Shown here: piece by piece, positions 1-13,951 of the stretch | Layout: each line of letters starts with the position of its first letter | How positions within the stretch are numbered: the first letter of the stretch is position 1 | From: Lachnospira sp. | GTDB lineage: Bacteria; Bacillota; Clostridia; Lachnospirales; Lachnospiraceae | Reading direction: 5' to 3' | Length of the DNA stretch: 17,352 bases | NCBI GenBank assembly: GCA_017626275.1 | Contig: JAGAJD010000087.1 | Location: 1 to 17,352 of the forward strand | Program-made: the position numbers and the translations under genes | Notes under the pieces: generated by a model | Seen by the model: only the letters and a program-made list of their open reading frames with translations | Told to the model about the DNA's origin: nothing | Databases searched by the model: none

Positions 1-12
1 TCCCGCATATAA

Positions 13-1389
13 TCAAGATTGACATAAAAGCCTTATACGAAGAGTAATCATTCCTGACTGTGTATATTTAACCGCATTTGTCAGAAGATTGGTTATAATC
101 TGACGTATCCTCACGTCATCACCGAACATTTCAGCAGGAAGCTTCTCATCTATATCAAGCTTAAACTCCAGCCCTTTCTTTCTGGCAGGCTCTTCAACCA
201 TCTGCACAAGTCCATCAATTAACGCTGCCGTTTTATATTCAACAGGAATAATTTCCATCTTTCCGTCTTCGATTTTTGAGAAATCAAGAATATTATTGAT
301 AATCGACAAAAGCGTCTTTCCTGCCATTTTTATATTGTTCGCATAATCCAGGATTTCTTTTTCCTTACTCTCCCTCAAAATCATCTCGTCCATACCTATG
401 ATAGCATTGATAGGCGTTCTGATTTCATGCGACATACTGGCAAGAAACGTACTTTTTGCCCTGTTTGCCTGTTCAGCCGCTTTCTTTGCCTCACGCAGCT
501 CATCGCTTTCTTTTACTTTTTCCTCCTCAAAAAGCAGATAAGCCGTTCCCACAACAAACAGAAACGTGAGTAACCCAAACACCCAGAACACCATAGGAAC
601 AATATAATTGGCTCCCTCCGAGACAACCTCAGCCGGAATCATTCCCATAATACGAAAATTGCTCCAGCCTGTTTCCGCCTCAAAATAAAATGTCTTCTTT
701 GAACTGTTCTTTACATATGTAGCCGCCACAACATTTTTACCGAGTTTTTTATTTAAATCCTTAACTGCTTCCTGCGGAAATTGACCAAGCCATTCTCCTG
801 TCTCCTCTATGTTCGCATTTTTTGCCGGAATAACAGGATTATAATTGCTGTCAACAATACAGATTTTTCCATTGCCTCCGTAACATTCAAGCCCGAATTT
901 TTCAGTAAGCTTCTCCTCCGGATATAGTTTATAAAATACATACTTTATGTTATTCCCGTTGTAAATCGGAACAGAAAACAAAAGTCCTTTTCCCTCACAG
1001 AAACATACCGCTTCATTTCCACGAAATGAATCTGTAATTCCCGAAAAATCCTTTTTAGATAACGCCTCGCCAAATACTGTGTCTCCATTCAGCAGCATAC
1101 AGCCATACGATATTCCATCATTATCTTCTGCCTCTATTAATTTCCTAATCGTATCATCTTCATATGCAATCTCTGACAGTCTGCCAAGCTTCTCCAGCTC
1201 TTCCTTAAACATTCTCCCCGACTGTTCGGATAACATTTCCACCTGTGCTGCAACCTGTTTCTCCATATATGTGCGAAGCATTAAATTTAGCCTTACGCCC
1301 ATCATACTGCCTATAACAAACAGCATAAAAAGAAAAACAACAATGACCGCAACAATTTTTATATTAATACGTTCTAACTTATTCCTCAT
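13..1389 (-). CDS. Membrane sensor histidine kinase, 3' part out of frame or cut off
   Basis: This is a transmembrane sensor histidine kinase. Residues 11-33 form TM1. Residues 34-262 form an extracellular sensor region of Cache-like length and pattern. Residues 263-286 form TM2, followed by a short coiled linker. The HisKA H box is SHEIRTPINAIIG at 320-332, with phospho-acceptor His321. The N box of the ATPase domain is visible (IITNLLTNAVKYT, 431-443). The frame then stops at 458, before the D, F and G boxes that any active kinase needs. Removing one base of the 'ATAAGG' near 31-36 would continue the frame as LRIGFYVNLDYMR to the window edge, so a 1-bp frameshift is likely. The start codon lies inside the end of the upstream BMP-like gene (11-bp overlap), which suggests translational coupling. 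The kinase is therefore probably co-expressed with the two binding proteins. Whether a receiver domain follows cannot be seen. Confidence 0.85.
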   Translation of the reverse strand: MRNKLERINIKIVAVIVVFLFMLFVIGSMMGVRLNLMLRTYMEKQVAAQVEMLSEQSGRMFKEELEKLGRLSEIAYEDDTIRKLIEAEDNDGISYGCMLLNGDTVFGEALSKKDFSGITDSFRGNEAVCFCEGKGLLFSVPIYNGNNIKYVFYKLYPEEKLTEKFGLECYGGNGKICIVDSNYNPVIPAKNANIEETGEWLGQFPQEAVKDLNKKLGKNVVAATYVKNSSKKTFYFEAETGWSNFRIMGMIPAEVVSEGANYIVPMVFWVFGLLTFLFVVGTAYLLFEEEKVKESDELREAKKAAEQANRAKSTFLASMSHEIRTPINAIIGMDEMILRESKEKEILDYANNIKMAGKTLLSIINNILDFSKIEDGKMEIIPVEYKTAALIDGLVQMVEEPARKKGLEFKLDIDEKLPAEMFGDDVRIRQIITNLLTNAVKYTQSGMITLRIRLLCQS

Positions 1390-2485
1390 AAATGTATACG
1401 CCTTCCACCAGCCAGTCCATTTTGTTCAAAAGAATTTCATCTGATATTGCTTCACCTATACTGCTTCGCAGCGTTCCTTGATTGTCATAAATCTCTCCTG
1501 AAAATATCTCCATTCCCGAAATAATTTTATCCGCTGCCTGCTGTACATCGGCTTTGATTGATTCCGATAGCGCAGGTGAGTATTCTGACAATGATACTGC
1601 TTCTTTTTCCATTCCTACCCAATATACGGAATTTGTATTTGTCTTCACCTTCCCCTGTATACATTCTTTAATAACCTCTCTATATACCTTAGTCCAGTCA
1701 CAAATTACCGATGTCAGATATTTTTCCGAATATTGTTTTTGCACCTCATGATAGCCTATCGAATAAATCCCGAGTTTTTCAGCTTCGTCTATAACATTTG
1801 TCTGATTCTGATGATACGTTACTATATCTGTATTTTTTCCTTTAACAAGCTTATCTGTCGCGTCTTTTTCTTTTTCAGCATTGTCCCACGAATTAGTCCT
1901 GAACACAAACACGTTTGCCTCAGGATTTACACTATGCACTCCCAATGCAAATGCATTGATTCCACGATTGACTTCGCTCGTATCCATAGCTGCAATATAT
2001 CCTATATTATTCGTCTCTGTCTTAAGTCCGGCTATAATTCCCGCCAAATATCTCGTCTGGTATATTCTTGCAAAATAAGCACAATAATTGTCTGCATTGA
2101 ATGTCGGGTCACAACAGCAAAAAGTTATTTCCGGGTGCGATTTAATAACATCTCCTACCTCCTGCGGATAGTTATAACTTACAAGAATGATAATATTTGC
2201 TCCCTCTTTTGCCATTTTTTCAATAGCCGGAGCACATTCTTCATATGTCTCTGATACATTTTCTTCAAGCCGTATACTTACACCCAGCTCCTCACATGCC
2301 GCACTGATTCCCTCATAATGTACATTATTCCACCCATTTTCCCGAATACTTCCCGGCATTATAACGCCCACAATATTAGCATTTTCCTCTTGTCTTCCAA
2401 AATATTTTACAGAAAACAGAATTATCACAAACAAAACTACTGCCACTGCAAGGAGAATGCTGTTTCTCTTTTTATTCTTTATCAT
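1379..2485 (-). CDS. Membrane-anchored BMP/PnrA-family ligand-binding protein (copy 1)
   Basis: This is a periplasmic-binding-protein fold of the BMP (basic membrane protein/PnrA) family, whose known members bind nucleosides for ABC uptake. The body opens with NIVGVIMPGSIRENGWN, carries the internal motif SEVNRGINAFALGV, and ends with a DNQGTLR...DWLVEGV segment shared with its neighbour. I chose the start at 2485 because AAGGAG (2495-2500) sits 9 nt upstream; an in-frame ATG at 2521 has no such site and lies deep in the upstream gene. From this start the N-terminus is basic, followed by about 20 hydrophobic residues and no cysteine. It should be an uncleaved membrane anchor rather than a lipoprotein signal. 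The gene overlaps its upstream paralogue by 14 bp and the downstream kinase by 11 bp. No permease or ATPase gene is near. I infer that it presents a ligand to the kinase; the ligand cannot be named. Confidence 0.85.
   Translation of the reverse strand: MIKNKKRNSILLAVAVVLFVIILFSVKYFGRQEENANIVGVIMPGSIRENGWNNVHYEGISAACEELGVSIRLEENVSETYEECAPAIEKMAKEGANIIILVSYNYPQEVGDVIKSHPEITFCCCDPTFNADNYCAYFARIYQTRYLAGIIAGLKTETNNIGYIAAMDTSEVNRGINAFALGVHSVNPEANVFVFRTNSWDNAEKEKDATDKLVKGKNTDIVTYHQNQTNVIDEAEKLGIYSIGYHEVQKQYSEKYLTSVICDWTKVYREVIKECIQGKVKTNTNSVYWVGMEKEAVSLSEYSPALSESIKADVQQAADKIISGMEIFSGEIYDNQGTLRSSIGEAISDEILLNKMDWLVEGVYIYEE
1923..1954. repeat. Conserved duplicated segment in BMP copy 1
   Basis: This 32-bp stretch matches 3016-3047 in BMP copy 2 with only two adjacent mismatches. 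It encodes the FALGV-SVNP motif and marks the tandem duplication. Confidence 0.7.
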
Positions 2486-3563
2486 CGGCAACAACTCCTT
2501 CCACATACCAGTCAAATTCATTAAGCATCACATCATCAGACATACTTTCTCCCTCTGTAATACGAAGATTTCCCTGATTATCTTTTATCGGTCCCCAAAA
2601 CACATCAAATGTACCATTTTTCAAAGCTTCCATTCGTGCATGAACAAAATTACCAATCTCAGGCTTCACATTTGCTGTAAACGGTGCAAGCGATACCACA
2701 CCTGTCCGAATATCTTCCCAATAATGCATACTCTGAAATTTACCAAGCTGACATTCCTTTAGTCTCGGTTCGTAAAATTTATCCCAGTTCCATACCGCAG
2801 CAGTAAGAAATGTATCCGGATATTTCTCACTGTTGTCAATATTATATCCTATTATCCATATTCCGTTTTCATCAGCAACGTCGTAAACCGCCAAAGAATC
2901 GCTATGCACCGTCATTACATCTATATTGTGCTTACTGATTAGACTGTTTGCTGCTTCCCGTGATGAATCATCATCTATCCACGAATTGCTCCACTCTACA
3001 TAAACCTTAGCATCGGGATTTACACTGCGCACTCCCAATGCAAATGCGTTAATTCCTCTGTTTACCTCTGAAATCGGATATGCCGCCACATAGCCGATTT
3101 CATTAGTTTTAGTCTGCAAGCCCGCAACAATTCCGCACAGATAACGCATCTGATATATTCTTCCAAAGTATGTAGACATATTCTTAGCTTCTTCAACTCC
3201 GGTAGCATGATAAAAATAAATATAAGGATGCTCCTCTGCAACCTCAAGCTCATATTTTCCAAAACCATATGAATTGCAGATAATAACTTCACAGCCCTGC
3301 TCAATCAATTCCTCCATTACAGAAATACACGCTTCATCTTCCGTAACATTTTCCCTGTAAATAACATTGAGCTTTAAATTCTGTGCTGCCTTTTCCATTC
3401 CCTCGTAATGTGACTGTCCCCAACTGGCATCATCTTTGCTTCCGTTCATCACAAACCCAACCTTCATCTGTTTCTCCGGCTGCTTCGTGTTTTCCTGTAA
3501 TACAAAAATTCCCACTATTATAAGCAAAAGCACTCCGCCTGCAATAATTCCTATCTTTTTCAT
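2472..3563 (-). CDS. Membrane-anchored BMP/PnrA-family ligand-binding protein (copy 2)
   Basis: This is a paralogue of the next gene downstream and the first gene of the three-gene unit. Residues 4-22 are a hydrophobic anchor after MKK, with no lipobox cysteine. The BMP-type domain starts at MKVGFVMNGSKDDASWG and contains SEVNRGINAFALGVRSVNP and a C-terminal DNQGNLR...FDWYVEGV block. The two proteins share these blocks and overall layout, so they probably arose by tandem duplication. The start ATG at 3561-3563 follows a purine-rich GGGGATGG stretch and is preceded by a possible promoter -10 box. Canonical BMP proteins deliver substrate to an ABC transporter, but here the partner gene is a histidine kinase. 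A sensory role is therefore an inference from context. An alternative is that it feeds a transporter encoded elsewhere. Confidence 0.85.
   Translation of the reverse strand: MKKIGIIAGGVLLLIIVGIFVLQENTKQPEKQMKVGFVMNGSKDDASWGQSHYEGMEKAAQNLKLNVIYRENVTEDEACISVMEELIEQGCEVIICNSYGFGKYELEVAEEHPYIYFYHATGVEEAKNMSTYFGRIYQMRYLCGIVAGLQTKTNEIGYVAAYPISEVNRGINAFALGVRSVNPDAKVYVEWSNSWIDDDSSREAANSLISKHNIDVMTVHSDSLAVYDVADENGIWIIGYNIDNSEKYPDTFLTAAVWNWDKFYEPRLKECQLGKFQSMHYWEDIRTGVVSLAPFTANVKPEIGNFVHARMEALKNGTFDVFWGPIKDNQGNLRITEGESMSDDVMLNEFDWYVEGVVADDKE
3016..3047. repeat. Conserved duplicated segment in BMP copy 2
   Basis: This is the partner of the 32-bp segment at 1923-1954 (30 of 32 bases identical). The distance between the copies is about 1.1 kb, one gene length. 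Confidence 0.7.
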
Positions 3564-3610: not shown

Positions 3611-3616
3611 ATTATA
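3611..3616 (-). promoter_or_regulatory. Possible -10 box for the BMP-BMP-kinase unit
   Basis: A perfect TATAAT occurs on the minus strand about 50 bp before the first BMP start, in the 108-bp gap after nspC. No good -35 hexamer is visible at 16-18 bp. It may be a weak or activator-dependent promoter, or a chance AT-rich match. Confidence 0.35.
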
Positions 3617-3671
3617 TCAAACAAATGTGAAAATGGGAACTAGCTAAATGGATAGTTTTATTTCTCCAATT

Positions 3672-4844
3672 CTAACTTAGCCTTGTCTTAAAGTTTTCAT
3701 ATCCAAACCGCTTTATCAGCCGTATCCCCCGTTCTTCATTATAAGAAAGAATGTCCGGCAGTGCAATTCCGTTAAAAGTATTATTCTTTACCATGCTGTA
3801 ATGCGCCATATCACAGAATACAAGCTTGTCTCCGGCTTTAAGCCGGTAGTCAAACGAATAATCACCGATAATATCTCCCGCAAGACAGGTATTTCCGCCA
3901 AAGCGGTAACAGTATTTTTTCTCTCCCGGCTTTCCCGCTCCGATAATCTCAGGGCGGTATGGCATTTCAAGCACATCGGGCATATGACACGCCGCTGAAG
4001 CGTCAAGAATTACAGGAACGGTCTCCACCTGATTTAATGAAAAGCTTTTATTCTGCACTTCCAAAACCTGTGCAACAAGATATCCCGTATTCAGTGCAAC
4101 GGCTTCTCCCGGTTCAAGATAAACCTGAACATCGTAAGTTGACTTTATGTGATTAATACATTTTACCAAAAGCTCCACATCATAATCGGAGCGTGTAATA
4201 TGATGTCCGCCACCGAAATTGACCCATTTAATCTGCTCCATCGCCATATATTTACCGAATTTTTCTTCAAGATGCGCAAGCACCCGCTCTAGCGTATCCG
4301 AATTTTGCTCACACATTACATGAAAATGAATACCTTCTATTCCGTCCAGAGCCTGAGGATTAACACTCAGCTCCTCTTCAAATTCTTTTAAAGTTGTTCC
4401 AAGTCTTGAGCCCGCACAGCATGGATTATAAATTTCATGTTCCACCTCGGCATACTCAGGATTTACACGGATTCCACAGCCACAGTTTGCTGTTTTGCCA
4501 CGAAATTTATCATACTGGTGAAGCGAATTAAATACAATATGGTCACACAGCGAAACAATCTCTGCAAACTCCTCCTCCTTGTAAGCCGGTGCAAAGATAT
4601 GCGTTTCCTTACCCATTTCCTCTTTTCCAAGCTTCGCCTCGTAAAGTGAGCTTGCCGTAGTTCCCGATAAATATTTTCCAATCAGAGGATAGAGAGAATA
4701 CATTGAAAAACCCTTCTGTGCCAAAAGAATTTTACAGCCTGTGCGCTCCATAACCTGTGCAAGCAGCTTTAAATTCTTCTCAAGCAGTCTCTCATCTACA
4801 ATATATGCCGGTGTACTAACCTCGTTAAAATTAATATTTTTCAT
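3672..4844 (-). CDS. nspC: Carboxynorspermidine/carboxyspermidine decarboxylase
   Basis: This PLP-dependent enzyme of the alanine-racemase-like fold decarboxylates carboxyspermidine (or carboxynorspermidine) to the free polyamine, the last step of the aspartate-semialdehyde route. Visible hallmarks are the PLP lysine at K44 (AQKGFS), HFHVMCEQ at 173-180, the phosphate-binding NFGGGHH at 209-215, EPGE at 244-247, and a C-terminal TCLAGD around Cys320, the expected catalytic cysteine. The length of 390 aa is normal for the family. It lies 84 bp after the carboxynorspermidine dehydrogenase gene on the same strand, and the intervening gap holds a hairpin resembling a terminator, so its expression may be lowered relative to the upstream genes. 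A GAAAGG site precedes the ATG. The gene pair strongly supports the assignment over diaminopimelate or ornithine decarboxylases of the same fold. Confidence 0.93.
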   Translation of the reverse strand: MKNINFNEVSTPAYIVDERLLEKNLKLLAQVMERTGCKILLAQKGFSMYSLYPLIGKYLSGTTASSLYEAKLGKEEMGKETHIFAPAYKEEEFAEIVSLCDHIVFNSLHQYDKFRGKTANCGCGIRVNPEYAEVEHEIYNPCCAGSRLGTTLKEFEEELSVNPQALDGIEGIHFHVMCEQNSDTLERVLAHLEEKFGKYMAMEQIKWVNFGGGHHITRSDYDVELLVKCINHIKSTYDVQVYLEPGEAVALNTGYLVAQVLEVQNKSFSLNQVETVPVILDASAACHMPDVLEMPYRPEIIGAGKPGEKKYCYRFGGNTCLAGDIIGDYSFDYRLKAGDKLVFCDMAHYSMVKNNTFNGIALPDILSYNEERGIRLIKRFGYENFKTRLS

Positions 4845-4873
4845 CTTAATTAACCTTTCGATTTTTTATAATG

Positions 4874-4904
4874 TAAAAACAGGGTGGAACGTACTGCCCA
4901 CCCC
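4874..4904 (-). terminator. GC-rich hairpin with U-tract between the dehydrogenase and nspC
   Basis: On the minus strand GGGTGG and CCACCC form a perfect 6-bp stem (4898-4903 with 4882-4887) around a 10-nt loop. It is followed by TGTTTTTA. This fits a short intrinsic terminator or attenuator placed inside the polyamine cluster rather than at its end. Some read-through, or a separate nspC promoter, must exist if nspC is expressed. Confidence 0.5.
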
Positions 4905-4928
4905 TTTGCAAATCTTTTATATTCTTTT

Positions 4929-6146
4929 TTAATCAACCAATGTCGGATTAAAATCTTCAACCCACGGAAGACCGAATTTGTTAAGCGCTTCCATAAACGT
5001 ATCCGGATCAAATTCCTCAATATTATGAACTCCCAGCTTATTCCATTTACCTGTCATCAGCATCATAGCACCAATCATTGCTGGCACGCCTGTTGTGTAA
5101 GAAACTGCCTGTGCTCCAACTTCCTTATAGCACTCCTGATGGTCGCACATGTTGTATACATAATATGTCTTATCCTGTCCGTCTTTCTTTCCTCTGAAAA
5201 TACAGCCTATGTTAGTCTTGCCTACCGTTCTCGGTCCCAAAGATGCCGGATCAGGAAGCACAGCCTTTAAAAACTGTAACGGAATAATCTGGTGTCCCTC
5301 AAATTCGATAGGCTCGATAGAAGTCATGCCAACATTTTCAAGACATTTTAAATGTGTCAGATAACTCTGGCCAAATGTCATAAAGAAACGGATTCTCTTA
5401 ATTCCCTTAATATTTAATGCAAGAGATTCAATTTCCTCATGATGAAGCAGGTACATATCTTTCATGCCCACTCCGTCAAAGTTGTATTCTCTCTTAATTT
5501 CCATCGGCTCTGTCTCAACCCAGTGACCGTCTTCCCAATAACTTCCCTTTGCTGAAACCTCACGGATATTAATCTCAGGATTAAAGTTTGTCGCAAACGG
5601 ATAACCGTGATCACCACCGTTGCAGTCTAAGATATCAATATATTCTATTTCATCAAAATAATGCTTCTGTGCATATGCAGAAAATACTCCTGTAACTCCC
5701 GGATCGAAGCCTGAGCCTAAGAGTGCAGTAATTCCTGCTTTTTCAAATTTTTCTCTGTATGCCCACTGCCATGAATACTCGAAATGTGCTGTTTCCGGCG
5801 GTTCATAATTAGCAGTGTCCATATAATTAGTCTTTGTCTCTAAGCAGGCGTCCATAATTGTAAGATCCTGATACGGAAGAGCAATATTCATGACAATATC
5901 AGGTTTTACCTTGTTAATCAAGGCAACAAGCTCATCAACGTGATCCGCATCTACCTGTTCTGTCGTAATCTTTGTCTTTCCTTCTCCAACACCATACTTT
6001 TCTTCGCATGCTTTCTTTAATGCGTCACATTTTGACTTTGTTCTGCTGGCAATGCAGATTTCCTCAAACACTTCAGGATTCTGACAGCACTTGTGTACTG
6101 CTACTCCCGCAACACCGCCTGCACCAATGATAAGAGCCTTGCCCAT
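4929..6146 (-). CDS. Carboxynorspermidine/carboxyspermidine dehydrogenase (saccharopine dehydrogenase family)
   Basis: This NAD(P)-dependent enzyme condenses aspartate semialdehyde with putrescine (or diaminopropane) and reduces the imine to carboxyspermidine (or carboxynorspermidine). The N-terminus MGKALIIGAGGVAGVAV is a Rossmann dinucleotide-binding motif (GAGGVAG at 8-14). The middle and C-terminal parts, with LLGSGFDPGVTGVF and CNGGDHGYPFATNFNP, are typical of this branch of the saccharopine dehydrogenase family. The start at 6146 is preferred over an in-frame ATG at 6170 because GGAGG (6152-6156) stands 5 nt before it and the Rossmann strand begins right there. The 115-bp gap from speE contains a weak TTGAAA-N17-TAAATA match (6219-6247), so an internal promoter is possible but unsupported. 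Its pairing with nspC fixes the pathway. Confidence 0.92.
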   Translation of the reverse strand: MGKALIIGAGGVAGVAVHKCCQNPEVFEEICIASRTKSKCDALKKACEEKYGVGEGKTKITTEQVDADHVDELVALINKVKPDIVMNIALPYQDLTIMDACLETKTNYMDTANYEPPETAHFEYSWQWAYREKFEKAGITALLGSGFDPGVTGVFSAYAQKHYFDEIEYIDILDCNGGDHGYPFATNFNPEINIREVSAKGSYWEDGHWVETEPMEIKREYNFDGVGMKDMYLLHHEEIESLALNIKGIKRIRFFMTFGQSYLTHLKCLENVGMTSIEPIEFEGHQIIPLQFLKAVLPDPASLGPRTVGKTNIGCIFRGKKDGQDKTYYVYNMCDHQECYKEVGAQAVSYTTGVPAMIGAMMLMTGKWNKLGVHNIEEFDPDTFMEALNKFGLPWVEDFNPTLVD

Positions 6147-6151
6147 TATTT

Positions 6152-6156
6152 CCTCC
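6152..6156 (-). promoter_or_regulatory. Ribosome binding site deciding the dehydrogenase start
   Basis: GGAGG lies 5 nt before the ATG at 6144-6146. It would fall inside the coding region if the longer frame from 6170 were used. Confidence 0.7.
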
Positions 6157-6261
6157 ATTCCGCCGCACATTGGATATTAACCAATCATATAGCAGCACTA
6201 TCTTTTTGTCTAATTAATTATTTACCAAATTTCATGCATATTTTCAACATAAAAATAATAA

Positions 6262-7122
6262 CTATTCATTATTTTTACCTATTTCCAACAATTCCTTTAC
6301 ATATGTAGGTAAATAAAAACTTCCCTTGTGAAGATCCGTATTATAATATCGCGTTTTCATATTAAGGCTGTTCCAATAATCCTCACGCAAATCCTTAATC
6401 GGGTCATATTTTTTGGAAGCAAATCCAAACAGCCAGTGTCCTGACGGATATGACGGTATATGACACTGATAAACAGTACTGTACGGAAATACAAGCTGAA
6501 TATGCTGATGCGCCTTCTGCACCGTCCTTGAATGTTCGCTGTAATAAGGACTTTCATGCTGATTAATCAATATTCCGTCATCATGCAGTGCCTTAAAACA
6601 GTTGCCATAAAATTCTCTTGTAAAAAATCCCTCTGCCGGACCGTATGGGTCTGCACAGTCCACAATTATTAAATCATACTCATCTTTTTTCATACGCACA
6701 AAGCGAAGTCCCTCTTCAAAATACATATTAACACGAGGGTCGTCCAGTTTGCAGGCAGTTTCCTGAAAATATTCCCTGCACATGCGCACAACCATTTTGT
6801 CAATTTCAACCATGTCAATATTTTCAATGGTATCGTACTTTGTAAGTTCCCTGATTGTACCGCCGTCTCCTGCTCCTATAACAAGAACATTTTTTACATT
6901 AGGGTGAACTGCCATAGGCACATGGGTAATCATTTCATGGTAGATAAATTCGTCCTTCTGTGAAATCATAAGTTCTCCGTCAAGCACTAAGACCTTTCCG
7001 AATTCCACCGTCTCCAGAATATCAATCCGCTGATACTCACTCTCTACGCTCGCAATCTGATTTTCCACTTTCATAGTAAAATGCACATCTTTAGTGTGCT
7101 TATCAGTATACCATAATTCCAT
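6262..7122 (-). CDS. speE: Spermidine synthase (polyamine aminopropyltransferase)
   Basis: This enzyme transfers an aminopropyl group from decarboxylated S-adenosylmethionine to putrescine. The 286-residue length is standard. The N-terminal beta domain (1-60) is followed by YHEM (61-64), the nucleotide-binding loop VIGAGDGG (81-88), the acidic VEID (105-108) that contacts the donor, and VDCADPYGPAEGFF (154-167) with the catalytic Asp155 and the diamine-binding loop. The usual DSTDP appears here as DCADP. The gene sits 17 bp after speA with a GAGG ribosome site in the gap, so the two are almost certainly co-transcribed. No S-adenosylmethionine decarboxylase gene is in the window, so the donor must come from a gene elsewhere, or the enzyme has another substrate. 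The cluster also encodes the alternative aspartate-semialdehyde route. Confidence 0.95.
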   Translation of the reverse strand: MELWYTDKHTKDVHFTMKVENQIASVESEYQRIDILETVEFGKVLVLDGELMISQKDEFIYHEMITHVPMAVHPNVKNVLVIGAGDGGTIRELTKYDTIENIDMVEIDKMVVRMCREYFQETACKLDDPRVNMYFEEGLRFVRMKKDEYDLIIVDCADPYGPAEGFFTREFYGNCFKALHDDGILINQHESPYYSEHSRTVQKAHQHIQLVFPYSTVYQCHIPSYPSGHWLFGFASKKYDPIKDLREDYWNSLNMKTRYYNTDLHKGSFYLPTYVKELLEIGKNNE

Positions 7123-7139
7123 TATTTTTCCTCACTTTT

Positions 7140-8618
7140 TTAGTTAGGCATAACCGTAACATTTGTATCTACAACATTAATATTTTCTATCTTCATATCC
7201 TGTGTACCTGTCACAAGACAGCCTTTTTCCTTCGCGTACTGGATATAGTGGATAATTTCTGTTGTAATCATCTCTCCCGGTGCGAGAATAGGAATTCCCG
7301 GCGGATAGCACATTACAAATTCACTGCATATCATTCCGCTGCTTTCCTCTATCGGAACCGAAAACTTTTTACTGAAAAATGCCTTGTGCGGTCCCATTAC
7401 AACCTTTGGATTAATATATTCATGGTCAAACATTCCGGCTTTTTCTCTCTCATGAAGTCTCTTTATCTCCGAAAGCGCGGAAATGAGACGTTCTATCTCA
7501 AGATTTCTGTCTCCGCCTGATATTATTGCAAGAATGTTTCCAATATCACCGAATTCTATCTGAATACCATAGTCATCTCGCAGTAAATCATACACTTCAA
7601 TTCCCGCAAGCCCTATATCTCTCGTGTGAATTGACAGCTTTGTTCTGTCAAAATCATATACCATGTCTTTGTCTATCAATTCATCACCAAATGCATAATA
7701 ACCGCCTAATTTATTAATTTCTTCTCTTGCATATGTTGCAAGCTCTATCATACGGTCACTGTAAAACTTACCGTTAAGGCTCATATTTTTTCTTGCAATA
7801 TCCAAAGATGAGAGCAGGAGATACGAGCCGCTTGTAGTCTGAGTCAGATTAATAATCTGTCTTACATAATCAGCATTAACCGTCTTTCTTGTCAGAAGGA
7901 TTGAGCTTTGCGTCAATGAGCCTCCCGTCTTATGCATACTTACTGCCGCCATATCAGCCCCGGCTTCCATTGCCGACACAGGAAGCTTGTCACTGAAATA
8001 AAAATGTGTTCCGTGTGCTTCATCTGCCAGCACTAACATTCCATGCTCATGTGCTATTCTTACAATCTCTTTAATATCCGAACATATTCCATAATATGTC
8101 GGATTGTTCACAAGAATTGCTTTAGCATCAGGATTTTCCTGAATTGCCTGCTTTACGTCCGCAACCGACATTCCAAGCGGAATTCCGAGCTTTTTATTTA
8201 CTCCCGGATTTACATACACAGGCATTGCCCCATTGACTACAAGTGCGTTAATAGCACTGCGATGCACGTTTCTTGGCATGATAATCTTATCTCCTGCAAC
8301 TGTCGCAGTCATAATCATTGCCTGCACTGCCGCAGTCGTTCCGTTTACGATAAAAAAGGCTTCATCTGCCCCAAAAGCCTCCGCAGCAAGCTGCTGTGCA
8401 TCTTTAATGACAGAAACCGGGTGACATAAATTGTCAAGAGGTTTCATGGAATTCATGTCAAGTTTTACGCAATCTGCCCCCAAAAATTCCTTTAATTCTT
8501 TATTTCCGCGTCCGCCTTTATGTCCCGGAACGTCAAAGTGAGCCAAACGGTTGAGTCTTTGTTCTTCTAAGGCTCTGTGAATTGGCGTATCCTGCTGTGT
8601 AAGTTTTCTTTTTTCCAA
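7140..8618 (-). CDS. speA: Arginine decarboxylase, fold type I (Orn/Lys/Arg decarboxylase family, SpeA type)
   Basis: This is a PLP enzyme of the Bacillus SpeA type (about 490 aa), expected to decarboxylate arginine to agmatine; lysine or ornithine specificity cannot be excluded from sequence. Visible features are FDVPGHKGG (28-36), VNGTT (91-95), LADEAHGTHF (197-206) with the PLP-ring aspartate, and MHKTGGSLTQSS (228-239) with PLP lysine K230. Translation begins at a TTG (8616-8618) because GGAAGG (8627-8632) lies 8 nt upstream. The next in-frame ATG is residue 55, which would remove the conserved FDVPGHKGG. An ATG at 8621-8623 lies between the ribosome site and the TTG but is out of frame. 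It is the first gene of the polyamine cluster, 62 bp after cvpA. No agmatinase or agmatine deiminase gene follows. Confidence 0.92.
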   Translation of the reverse strand: MEKRKLTQQDTPIHRALEEQRLNRLAHFDVPGHKGGRGNKELKEFLGADCVKLDMNSMKPLDNLCHPVSVIKDAQQLAAEAFGADEAFFIVNGTTAAVQAMIMTATVAGDKIIMPRNVHRSAINALVVNGAMPVYVNPGVNKKLGIPLGMSVADVKQAIQENPDAKAILVNNPTYYGICSDIKEIVRIAHEHGMLVLADEAHGTHFYFSDKLPVSAMEAGADMAAVSMHKTGGSLTQSSILLTRKTVNADYVRQIINLTQTTSGSYLLLSSLDIARKNMSLNGKFYSDRMIELATYAREEINKLGGYYAFGDELIDKDMVYDFDRTKLSIHTRDIGLAGIEVYDLLRDDYGIQIEFGDIGNILAIISGGDRNLEIERLISALSEIKRLHEREKAGMFDHEYINPKVVMGPHKAFFSKKFSVPIEESSGMICSEFVMCYPPGIPILAPGEMITTEIIHYIQYAKEKGCLVTGTQDMKIENINVVDTNVTVMPN

Positions 8619-12291: not shown

Positions 12292-12885
12292 ATGATATAC
12301 TACTTTGACTCTGCACACGATGAAACTATCAGCAATATGTGTAAACAGTTGGACAAGCTGATTCAGGACAATTATATGCCTGGACAGCCTATCGTGGTTA
12401 TGTGTATCGGAAGCGACCGTTCCACCGGAGACAGCCTCGGACCTTTGGTCGGATATAAGCTGTCCAAATTTTCTTTTGAAAATATTTATATCTATGGCTC
12501 TCTTAATCAGCCGATACATGCCACTAATCTCTCTGAAACCATAGATAAAATAAACAAAACACATTTATGCCCGTTTATTATCGCTTTGGACGCATCACTT
12601 GGAAAAAAAGAACACATTGGTTATATAACACTTGCGAACGGCCCTTTAAAACCGGGAATAGGAGTTAAAAAAAAGCTGCCCGAAGTAGGCAGTCTCCACA
12701 TTACCGGAATTGTAAATTACTCCGGCATTATGGATCATGCTCTTCTTCAGACAACCCGATTATCCACAATTATGACAATGGCAGATATTATTACCGCTGT
12801 TTTGGTAAATACGTTTCTTACTGATGTTTTTCCTTATAAACAGCAAGAGCCTGTGCAACTGTATCAGCAGCTCCTGTCGTCATAA
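12292..12885 (+). CDS. yyaC: Sporulation protein YyaC (DUF1256, GPR-like peptidase fold)
   Basis: This protein belongs to the YyaC family, related in fold to the spore germination protease GPR and to hydrogenase-maturation peptidases; its exact function is not known. Hallmarks are VVMCIGSDRSTGDSLGP (35-51) with two aspartates of the putative active site (D42, D47), LDASLGKKEHIGY (99-111), and LPEVGSLHITGIVN (129-142). The length of 197 aa is close to Bacillus YyaC. The ATG at 12292 is chosen because GAGG (12278-12281) is 10 nt upstream; a TTG at 12283 is too close to that site. It is the only complete plus-strand gene. Its last 68 bp overlap the end of the convergent coiled-coil gene. The family occurs in endospore formers, so this marks the organism as a likely spore former. 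Confidence 0.92.
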   Translation: MIYYFDSAHDETISNMCKQLDKLIQDNYMPGQPIVVMCIGSDRSTGDSLGPLVGYKLSKFSFENIYIYGSLNQPIHATNLSETIDKINKTHLCPFIIALDASLGKKEHIGYITLANGPLKPGIGVKKKLPEVGSLHITGIVNYSGIMDHALLQTTRLSTIMTMADIITAVLVNTFLTDVFPYKQQEPVQLYQQLLSS

Positions 12886-13912
12886 TCTGTTTTAACTCTG
12901 TAAGTCTCTCCATAGTGACGTATTCTTTTCCAAGATATGCCTCATAGTTAGACGATATATAAATACGCTGTTCTTTTACCAGATTATCAAGTCTTAAGTG
13001 TTCCGCTGATTTCTTTTCAAGTTCAGACTTCATTGCATTGATTCTCTCGTTTTCTCTTCCCTGAATCTCTGCAATGATATCTGCTTTTACTGTCTTATCA
13101 AAATCCTCAAGCGCTTTTTCTTTCTCCTGCTCGATTCTTTTCATGTCCTCACGAAGCTCACTTATCTTTGCATCAAACTCTTCGAGTCCATACATTTCCT
13201 CATTATTATCCGATTTGATGTTTCTGGCGATTTTTCTAATCTTTTTGTGATTACTGTAAATTTCTTCTTTTAATTTGCGTGCCTTATCAATCGTCTCTGC
13301 ATGGCGTACTATCGTTTTTTCTACAATCATTTTATTCACAAATGACTGTATGAGTATGACTATTACATAATACAGAATCATTCCCCACAACGGAAATTCC
13401 GGAATTATGCTTAGTACAAACGGCACTACCGCATATACTGCGGCAATTACCAAAAGATAAATAAAAACATCTGTAAGCTTTCTCGTTCTATATAACGCAA
13501 TATAGATTCTGCTGTTACAAAACATCGGTATATTTTCCTGTGCAAATGAGTCCTTAATCTGGTTCTTTAACACATCGTTCTGCTTACGGATATAAGCTGT
13601 TTCGCCGGCTATCCGTTCCTTAACGCCTGCCAGCTTTGCCTTTTCCCTTTTGTTTTGTACATCTTTGAGCTTTTCCCTGTCACCGGCTATTGTCTTATCA
13701 AACCCTGCACATATGGCATCTGTACTGTCTTTAATTCTACTGTCAATCTCCTGCTGTACAGCCCGACCTGCGTCCTCTACATTTTTTGTAATGTCCTGAA
13801 TACTCTCAGATAGTCTGCCAAGTCTTTCAATGGTTTCCTTATGAACATTCAGGTCATTCATCATCTGATCAAGAACACTGACATCTCCAGCCAGTATATT
13901 CTGTTCCGCCAT
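12818..13912 (-). CDS. Unrecognised two-TM coiled-coil membrane protein
   Basis: I do not recognise this 364-residue protein. Residues 20-125 are helical and highly charged, including ESIQDITKNVEDAG and KLKDVQNKREKAKLAG. Residues 149-170 and 175-193 are two membrane helices with a short PEFPLWG turn. Residues 200-320 form a second long, Lys/Glu-rich coiled coil (for example REDMKRIEQEKEKALEDFDK). Both ends should lie on the same, probably cytoplasmic, side. The start at 13912 is preferred over 13924 because GGAG (13919-13922) is 6 nt upstream of it. It lies 39 bp after the hydratase gene and may be read from the same promoter. Its tail overlaps yyaC on the opposite strand. The layout recalls membrane-tethered scaffolding or tension-sensing proteins, but no family can be assigned. 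Confidence 0.75.
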   Translation of the reverse strand: MAEQNILAGDVSVLDQMMNDLNVHKETIERLGRLSESIQDITKNVEDAGRAVQQEIDSRIKDSTDAICAGFDKTIAGDREKLKDVQNKREKAKLAGVKERIAGETAYIRKQNDVLKNQIKDSFAQENIPMFCNSRIYIALYRTRKLTDVFIYLLVIAAVYAVVPFVLSIIPEFPLWGMILYYVIVILIQSFVNKMIVEKTIVRHAETIDKARKLKEEIYSNHKKIRKIARNIKSDNNEEMYGLEEFDAKISELREDMKRIEQEKEKALEDFDKTVKADIIAEIQGRENERINAMKSELEKKSAEHLRLDNLVKEQRIYISSNYEAYLGKEYVTMERLTELKQIMTTGAADTVAQALAVYKEKHQ

Positions 13913-13918
13913 AACGTT

Positions 13919-13922
13919 CTCC
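13919..13922 (-). promoter_or_regulatory. Ribosome binding site deciding the coiled-coil protein start
   Basis: GGAG lies 6 nt before the ATG at 13910-13912. The other in-frame ATG (13922-13924) overlaps this site and has no purine-rich stretch of its own. Confidence 0.55.
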
Positions 13923-13951
13923 ATTCTTATGCATATTGTATGCCAATATCA

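Follow-up and report, generated by a model that had tools for sequence, protein, structure and literature searches.

Why would two BMP-family binding proteins be encoded directly in front of a histidine kinase, with no transporter beside them? This question is raised by contig JAGAJD010000087.1 of Lachnospira sp. (assembly GCA_017626275.1), whose full 17,352 nt were analyzed and are called the window here. Three genes overlap on its minus strand. BMP1 (2472..3563) encodes a membrane-anchored BMP-family binding protein of 363 aa that matches Pfam Bmp (PF02608) with E 8e-57, and BMP2 (1379..2485) encodes a second one with E 3e-52; their scores of 193 and 178 bits compare with a curated cut-off of 24.1. 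The third gene (13..1389, HisKA E 7e-17) is a histidine kinase frame of 458 aa, its 3' part cut off at the contig start. From hydropathy and domain matches, the kinase has a first transmembrane segment, a dCache-like sensor, a second transmembrane segment, HisKA and the start of HATPase, the extracytoplasmic sensor domain covering aa 34-262 (604..1290). The longest open reading frame (ORF) of BMP2 spans 1379-2521 (380 aa), and its likely start is the in-frame ATG at 2485. With that start the tandem BMP genes share 14 bp, as the original prediction had stated, while the longest ORF gives 50 bp; the 11-bp overlap of BMP2 with the kinase was found as described. We consider it likely that BMP1 and BMP2 serve this kinase as dedicated extracytoplasmic co-receptors, forming with it a sensor-only system for purine bases that resembles LuxP-LuxQ. 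The computed features behind this reading are the recurring trio, the two-way linkage of sensor and BMP genes, the lack of an importer nearby, the anchors, the purine pockets, the dCache fold of the sensor and the neighbouring regulator genes.

Relatives of the trio were collected from a contig scan (30 loci), a sample of the genus, family and order (61 genomes), 397 family genomes and 299 phylum genomes. The BMP1-BMP2 tandem was found in 48 non-redundant loci, 45 including the window and 3 from a second family of the same phylum (L110, L111 and L113). The gene after BMP2 is this kinase in all 47 loci that can be read past BMP2 (44/44 and 3/3), L056 being unreadable because it ends at a contig edge after BMP2. 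The same gene order in 48 loci rules out chance, and the recurrent linkage of BMP pair and kinase, whose absence the original prediction had named as evidence against itself, is thus present. Since the loci were collected by BMP1 similarity, the 47/47 applies to the relatives of this pair and not to all BMPs. Identical loci (L066, L072 and L073) were removed before counting, L090 with its three lipoprotein BMPs was excluded, and L047 was not counted, its contig stopping after BMP1. L054 was counted although the assembly breaks its BMP1 frame; this locus is also among the nine loci classed as single in the survey of importer genes and lipoboxes below. In 31 of the 45 loci the genes of BMP1 and BMP2 share 11 or 14 bp. 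The distribution is patchy: an adjacent pair is recorded for 15 of the 397 family genomes and, within the window's genus, for 5 of 22. Genomes G468 and G707, from a different family of the phylum (L110-L114), carry four and three BMP-plus-sensor loci with one or two BMPs each. In G179 a BMP1-type gene (L078) and a BMP2-type gene (L079) sit on different contigs, and each has a kinase of its own as neighbour, which looks like a pair that was split.

The strongest test of the co-receptor reading is the linkage seen from the side of the sensor. A profile built from 36 sensor domains was searched against 30 genomes, composed of 15 carriers of the pair and 15 selected non-carriers and not drawn at random. 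With E 2e-20 or better it matched 20 times, always within the carrier genomes, and every match has a PF02608 gene immediately upstream on the same strand (two genes in 16 cases, one in 4). The 15 selected non-carriers gave no match at 1e-6. In addition, the distance matrices of 35 BMP1-BMP2-kinase trios correlate. Given the kinase core, partial r with the sensor is 0.59 for BMP1 and 0.65 for BMP2, against 0.27 and 0.31 with REC-Hpt; these correlations share phylogeny and are suggestive only.

No importer accompanies the pair. The Pfam and NCBIfam matches of the 14 larger genes of the window, one of which (12818-13924) has no match, agree with the original prediction that it contains no ABC gene. 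Genes for a BMP-type ABC ATPase and permease within 8 kb, or within the fetched stretch, were found in 0 of 46 trio loci, of which only 29 are flanked on each side by 6 kb or more of sequence, and in 0 of the nine loci classed as single; the same survey was positive in 23 of 24 ABC-class loci. Two of the trio loci (L045 and L053) have a lone ABC-ATPase match. Homologues standing consistently beside ABC transporter genes, the other outcome named as refuting, were therefore not what was found. At the genome level, a BMP-type permease was absent at 1e-15 from 11 of the 15 near-complete carriers; all three control genomes have one, and the query came from one of these three. In G187, G256, G265 and G312 (96-98% complete) the pair provides the only PF02608 matches. 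The 47/47 kinase linkage, the 0/46 for importers and the 20/20 sensor matches beside a BMP gene together support the proposal that the BMPs were recruited as kinase co-receptors.

Both proteins begin with an N-terminal anchor and have no lipobox cysteine, as predicted: some 20 hydrophobic residues follow a basic start. The anchor covers about aa 4-22 in BMP1 (3498..3554, minus strand), where an AlphaFold model has residues 2-25 as a single helix, and about aa 20-40 of the 380-aa ORF in BMP2 (2402..2464, minus strand, from hydropathy). A basic start followed by one helix would place the binding domain outside the membrane. In the paired BMPs the median hydrophobic runs are 19 and 21. Two lipobox rules were used, and their counts differ. 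When a polar stretch was required after the lipobox, none of the 46 BMP1 and none of the 46 BMP2 proteins qualified; 20 of 24 ABC-linked and 5 of 7 chemoreceptor-linked BMPs did, as did 2 of the 9 that stand singly beside a kinase. The other rule gave 2 of 94 kinase-linked (both within the hydrophobic run), 6 of 7 chemoreceptor-linked and 6 of 7 ABC-linked proteins. Absence of a lipobox as a proof of sensing was rejected, because both ABC-linked BMPs of L115 and one of the two of L116 have none, and neither has L098.

What do the two proteins bind? Pocket sites were taken from AtzT (Y45/S97/E165/W194/N218/N220, residues given in passages of PMC6834077). They correspond to W48, S98, E166, W195, H220 and D222 in BMP1 and to W64, S115, E183, W212, H237 and N239 in BMP2, numbered from the 2521 start. 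W/S/E/W/H/D occur in 41, 42, 43, 43, 43 and 38 of 43 BMP1 sequences, and W/S/E/W/H/N in 44, 44, 44, 44, 44 and 42 of 44 BMP2 sequences. Both BMPs thus have the aromatic sandwich with Ser, Glu, His/Asn and Asp/Asn that marks the purine-base subclass of AtzT and 3s99. The nucleoside pocket of BmpA is formed by F27, F151, F176, V224, D225 and K242 (according to passages of PMC13325309). The aromatic pair F27/F176 is kept as W/W in the BMPs, F151 is replaced by G, V224 by Y, D225 by N or H, and K242 by W or variable residues. A nucleoside ligand was rejected on these pocket residues. The original prediction had called both proteins BMP/PnrA-type, a kind that normally serves nucleoside importers; the family assignment (PF02608) held, and the pocket is of the AtzT/3s99 type. 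Judging from these residues, the ligand class is predicted to be a purine base, adenine- or guanine-like. Since both pockets are intact, BMP1 and BMP2 probably both bind ligand. The pocket marks the type of ligand and not the role of the protein, because chemoreceptor-linked and some ABC-linked BMPs share it.

The sensor domain of the kinase has a dCache fold by fold search, a tandem PAS-like extracytoplasmic domain of the kind present in LuxQ. The dCache_1PU motif for direct purine binding consists of an essential Trp and a subsequent aromatic residue (passages of PMC11245519), and the kinase sensor rows do not have it, as judged without a full residue mapping. Two of the 36 sensor rows contain the Trp-aromatic pair of dCache ligand motifs, which in these rows falls in the domain's second half and in a place that does not match; any Trp in residues 55-135 is likewise found in 2 of 36. 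The kinase dCache domain itself probably lacks a binding site for small molecules.

The window kinase is incomplete, its HATPase match stopping at position 32 of 111 of the Pfam model; the window starts at contig base 1, which truncates the kinase within the ATPase domain. The final residues of the frame diverge from homologues. The kinase stop codon and these non-homologous residues at the contig start (window 1-30) suggest an artefact at the end of the assembly or a genuine break. The missing remainder was sought elsewhere in the 59%-complete genome, where other kinases were found and no continuation could be joined. Full-length kinases of this type are hybrids, in which HATPase is followed by REC and usually by Hpt; in a few relatives no Hpt was detected. 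A gene with GGDEF or HD-GYP adjoins the trio in 27 of 36 readable loci, against a background of 44 of 790 ORFs in which the trio neighbours are themselves included. These neighbouring response regulators suggest that cyclic di-GMP (c-di-GMP) is the output of the kinase system, as it would also be in the window's own genome.

Based on these features, a mechanism can be proposed. An uncleaved N-terminal helix would hold each BMP in the membrane, with its two-lobed binding domain outside. Each BMP would close on a purine base, which two tryptophans would sandwich while Ser, Glu, His and Asp/Asn form bonds to it. The BMPs would touch the dCache sensor domain of the kinase, and closure of their lobes would alter kinase activity across the membrane, in a direction that we can only presume. 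Phosphate would then travel a His-Asp-His route (HisKA, REC and Hpt) and end at response regulators; those whose genes adjoin the trio are often synthases (REC-GGDEF) or hydrolases (REC-HD-GYP) of c-di-GMP. The contact between BMP and kinase, the identity of the ligand, the direction of the response and the c-di-GMP output in this genome are those parts of the scheme that we infer.

Upstream of BMP1, on the same strand, are genes for an Orn/Lys/Arg-type decarboxylase, a spermidine synthase, a carboxynorspermidine synthase-like protein, which scores under the cut-off of that model, and a carboxynorspermidine decarboxylase (nspC), the end of which lies 108 bp from BMP1. In this gap there is a promoter-like site with an extended -10 (TTCCCA-17-TATAAT, 3611..3639, minus strand), identified by a consensus scan that found 3 sites against 1.3 expected, from which the three genes may have their own promoter. 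Polyamine genes, which occupy 3672-8618 in the window, are also upstream of the trio in the related loci L056 and L062, from another branch, where PAD_porph and CN_hydrolase genes sit between them and the trio. Carboxynorspermidine and spermidine genes were not found in the remaining fetched loci. A polyamine ligand deduced from the neighbouring genes was considered weak.

Other BMP proteins help to place the pair. In a tree of 140 rows, made by a quick method and rooted for drawing only, BMP1 and BMP2 form groups of 50 and 54 rows with supports of 97 and 99. Single kinase-linked BMPs fall in the BMP1 group (L078 and L080) or in the BMP2 group (L079, L081, L086, L097, L112 and L114), the BMP of the broken pair L054 falls in the BMP2 group, and ABC- and chemoreceptor-linked BMPs fall outside both. 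This fits one old BMP duplication with later losses, as far as such a tree can suggest. Seven loci (L087, L091-L093, L095, L102 and L103) have a single BMP gene, mostly with a lipobox, followed by a chemoreceptor. That of L087 (8318-10027) has sCache_3_3 and MCPsignal domains, and the chemoreceptors of the other six belong to its cluster. The pocket sites of these BMPs are Y,S,E,W,H,D in 7/7, and it is possible that they are co-receptors for purine chemotaxis. The window's genome also encodes C10 (L003:377-2314, 645 aa), with a BMP domain behind an N-terminal region of about 290 residues and a metallophosphoesterase gene adjoining. This fusion type (C10/L003, L018-L025 and L027-L033) has no N-terminal anchor by hydropathy and is possibly cytosolic; 16 soluble copies have mostly lost the pocket residues E, W and H. 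C10 was rejected as a partner of the trio, being of this separate type.

Several observations weigh against the co-receptor reading. The contigs of three further, weak sensor matches (3e-8 to 1.5e-7) gave no match to PF02608. A BMP-type permease is present in 4 of the 15 carriers (G025, G061, G140 and G159), where the BMPs may be shared with a transporter. In L115 and L116 tandem BMPs stand ahead of ABC genes and three of the four proteins have no lipobox cysteine, so that an anchored BMP importer seems to exist as well. The purine pocket is found in 7/7 chemoreceptor-linked BMPs, and its E and H each in 4 of 7 ABC-linked ones. AtzT also bound 2-hydroxyatrazine, a triazine (passages of PMC6834077), and such a pocket can therefore accept other rings. 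The upstream polyamine genes in two lineages are left without explanation by a purine ligand. Finally, 9 of the 36 loci have no GGDEF/HD-GYP neighbour, and the downstream region of the window lies beyond the contig.

These points bear on several alternatives. The BMPs could be ordinary importer proteins that feed purines or nucleosides to a distant ABC transporter, the kinase just regulating uptake genes. ABC importers are the classic partners of BMP proteins, ATPase and permease genes stand beside 23 of 24 ABC-class relatives, and four carriers do have a permease. Nevertheless, with none at 1e-15 in the other 11, with the pair as sole PF02608 matches in four genomes of 96-98% completeness, and with strong sensor matches always beside BMP genes whose distances track the sensor domain, we regard this explanation as very unlikely. 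Alternatively, the device could be the same with a ligand other than a purine base, such as a polyamine, a different heterocycle or a modified nucleoside; the polyamine genes directly upstream in the window and in L056/L062, together with the triazine accepted by AtzT, speak for such a ligand. This is improbable given the flat double-Trp stack with Ser/Glu/His/Asp, which matches guanine- and adenine-bound structures, the restriction of nspC, carboxynorspermidine synthase and spermidine synthase genes to only three fetched loci, two of them close relatives, and the promoter-like site of BMP1's own.

The kinase dCache might also sense its own ligand, the BMPs merely tuning sensitivity, in the manner suggested for CuaD and CuaS. 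Direct ligand binding is known for many dCache domains (passages of PMC11245519), and the authors of CuaD proposed weak direct sensing by CuaS (passages of PMC10384115). Here the Trp-aromatic pair common to the amino-acid, amine and purine dCache motifs, confined to the second half of the domain in just two rows of 36, the equally rare Trp in residues 55-135 and the lack of a strong sensor match without a BMP in 30 genomes make direct sensing unlikely. A division of labour in which one BMP alone binds and the other is a structural subunit would suit the single-BMP kinase loci of either paralogue type, where one protein can suffice, but it has little probability when both pockets are kept almost without exception across 43 and 44 sequences. 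Within the co-receptor reading, a tentative and rather doubtful extension is that BMP1 and BMP2 bind different purine bases on one dCache kinase, the cell comparing two purines to set c-di-GMP and single-BMP loci being half a comparator. It is suggested by one contact site, where BMP1 has Asp, as in adenine-modelled 3s99, and BMP2 has Asn, as in guanine-bound AtzT.

The co-receptor system would be related to several known ones. About ten kinases driven by binding proteins have been characterized, and 13 of 22 binding-protein families were found to interact with receptors, the passages of that source not stating whether Bmp is among them (PMC9602780). Among the titles and abstract openings surveyed in the literature, no paper on a BMP protein coupled to a kinase was found, and an earlier mention may exist. 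LuxP acts through the tandem PAS-like (PDC) sensor of LuxQ, and the kinase itself binds no ligand (passages of PMC8534201). The likeness to our system lies in a binding protein working through a tandem PAS-like/dCache kinase sensor and in a stable gene linkage of the two, seen here in 47/47 readable loci and 20/20 strong sensor matches. LuxP is a single soluble periplasmic protein, whereas the window encodes two BMP-family proteins that are anchored and have pockets of the purine-base type. The window kinase matches the LuxQ model with E 2e-38, a general kinase-core match weaker than that to TorS and far under the cut-off; LuxQ is absent among the 50 fold matches listed for the sensor, which excludes nothing. 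In Ruminiclostridium cellulolyticum, CuaD-CuaS-CuaR is a similar clostridial three-component arrangement, with the CuaD gene near the kinase gene and CuaD binding the extracellular part of the kinase (passages of PMC10384115). It differs in that CuaD is a single predicted lipoprotein for cellobiose, CuaS has HAMP and no predicted extracellular domain, and the Cua system controls an importer operon. AtzT (6pi5) is believed to function in uptake, and the title of 3s99 calls that protein a lipoprotein (passages of PMC6834077); no kinase link of either was seen in this analysis. McpH and other dCache_1PU sensors also sense purines via a dCache receptor, but the McpH dCache binds the purine itself (passages of PMC11245519), while in the trio the purine pocket is in separate BMPs and the motif Trp is missing. 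The BMP-family protein Med (2hqb) is, like the pair, not titled a transporter part but a transcriptional activator (comK regulator); it is shorter and has no C-terminal extension in the alignment, and we know of no kinase partner for it.

Pfam files Bmp as importer binding proteins, and BMP1 and BMP2 would be named transporter parts on that basis. Our data indicate a transporter-free branch of the family in which the pocket has been handed to a receptor, and a second branch in which lipoprotein BMPs are paired with chemoreceptors. The pairs, the BMP1-type genes alone and the BMP2-type genes alone form a natural set for asking how one kinase reads two binding proteins. If the co-receptor reading is true, clostridia of the animal gut would own an outside sense for purines that is wired to c-di-GMP and motility.

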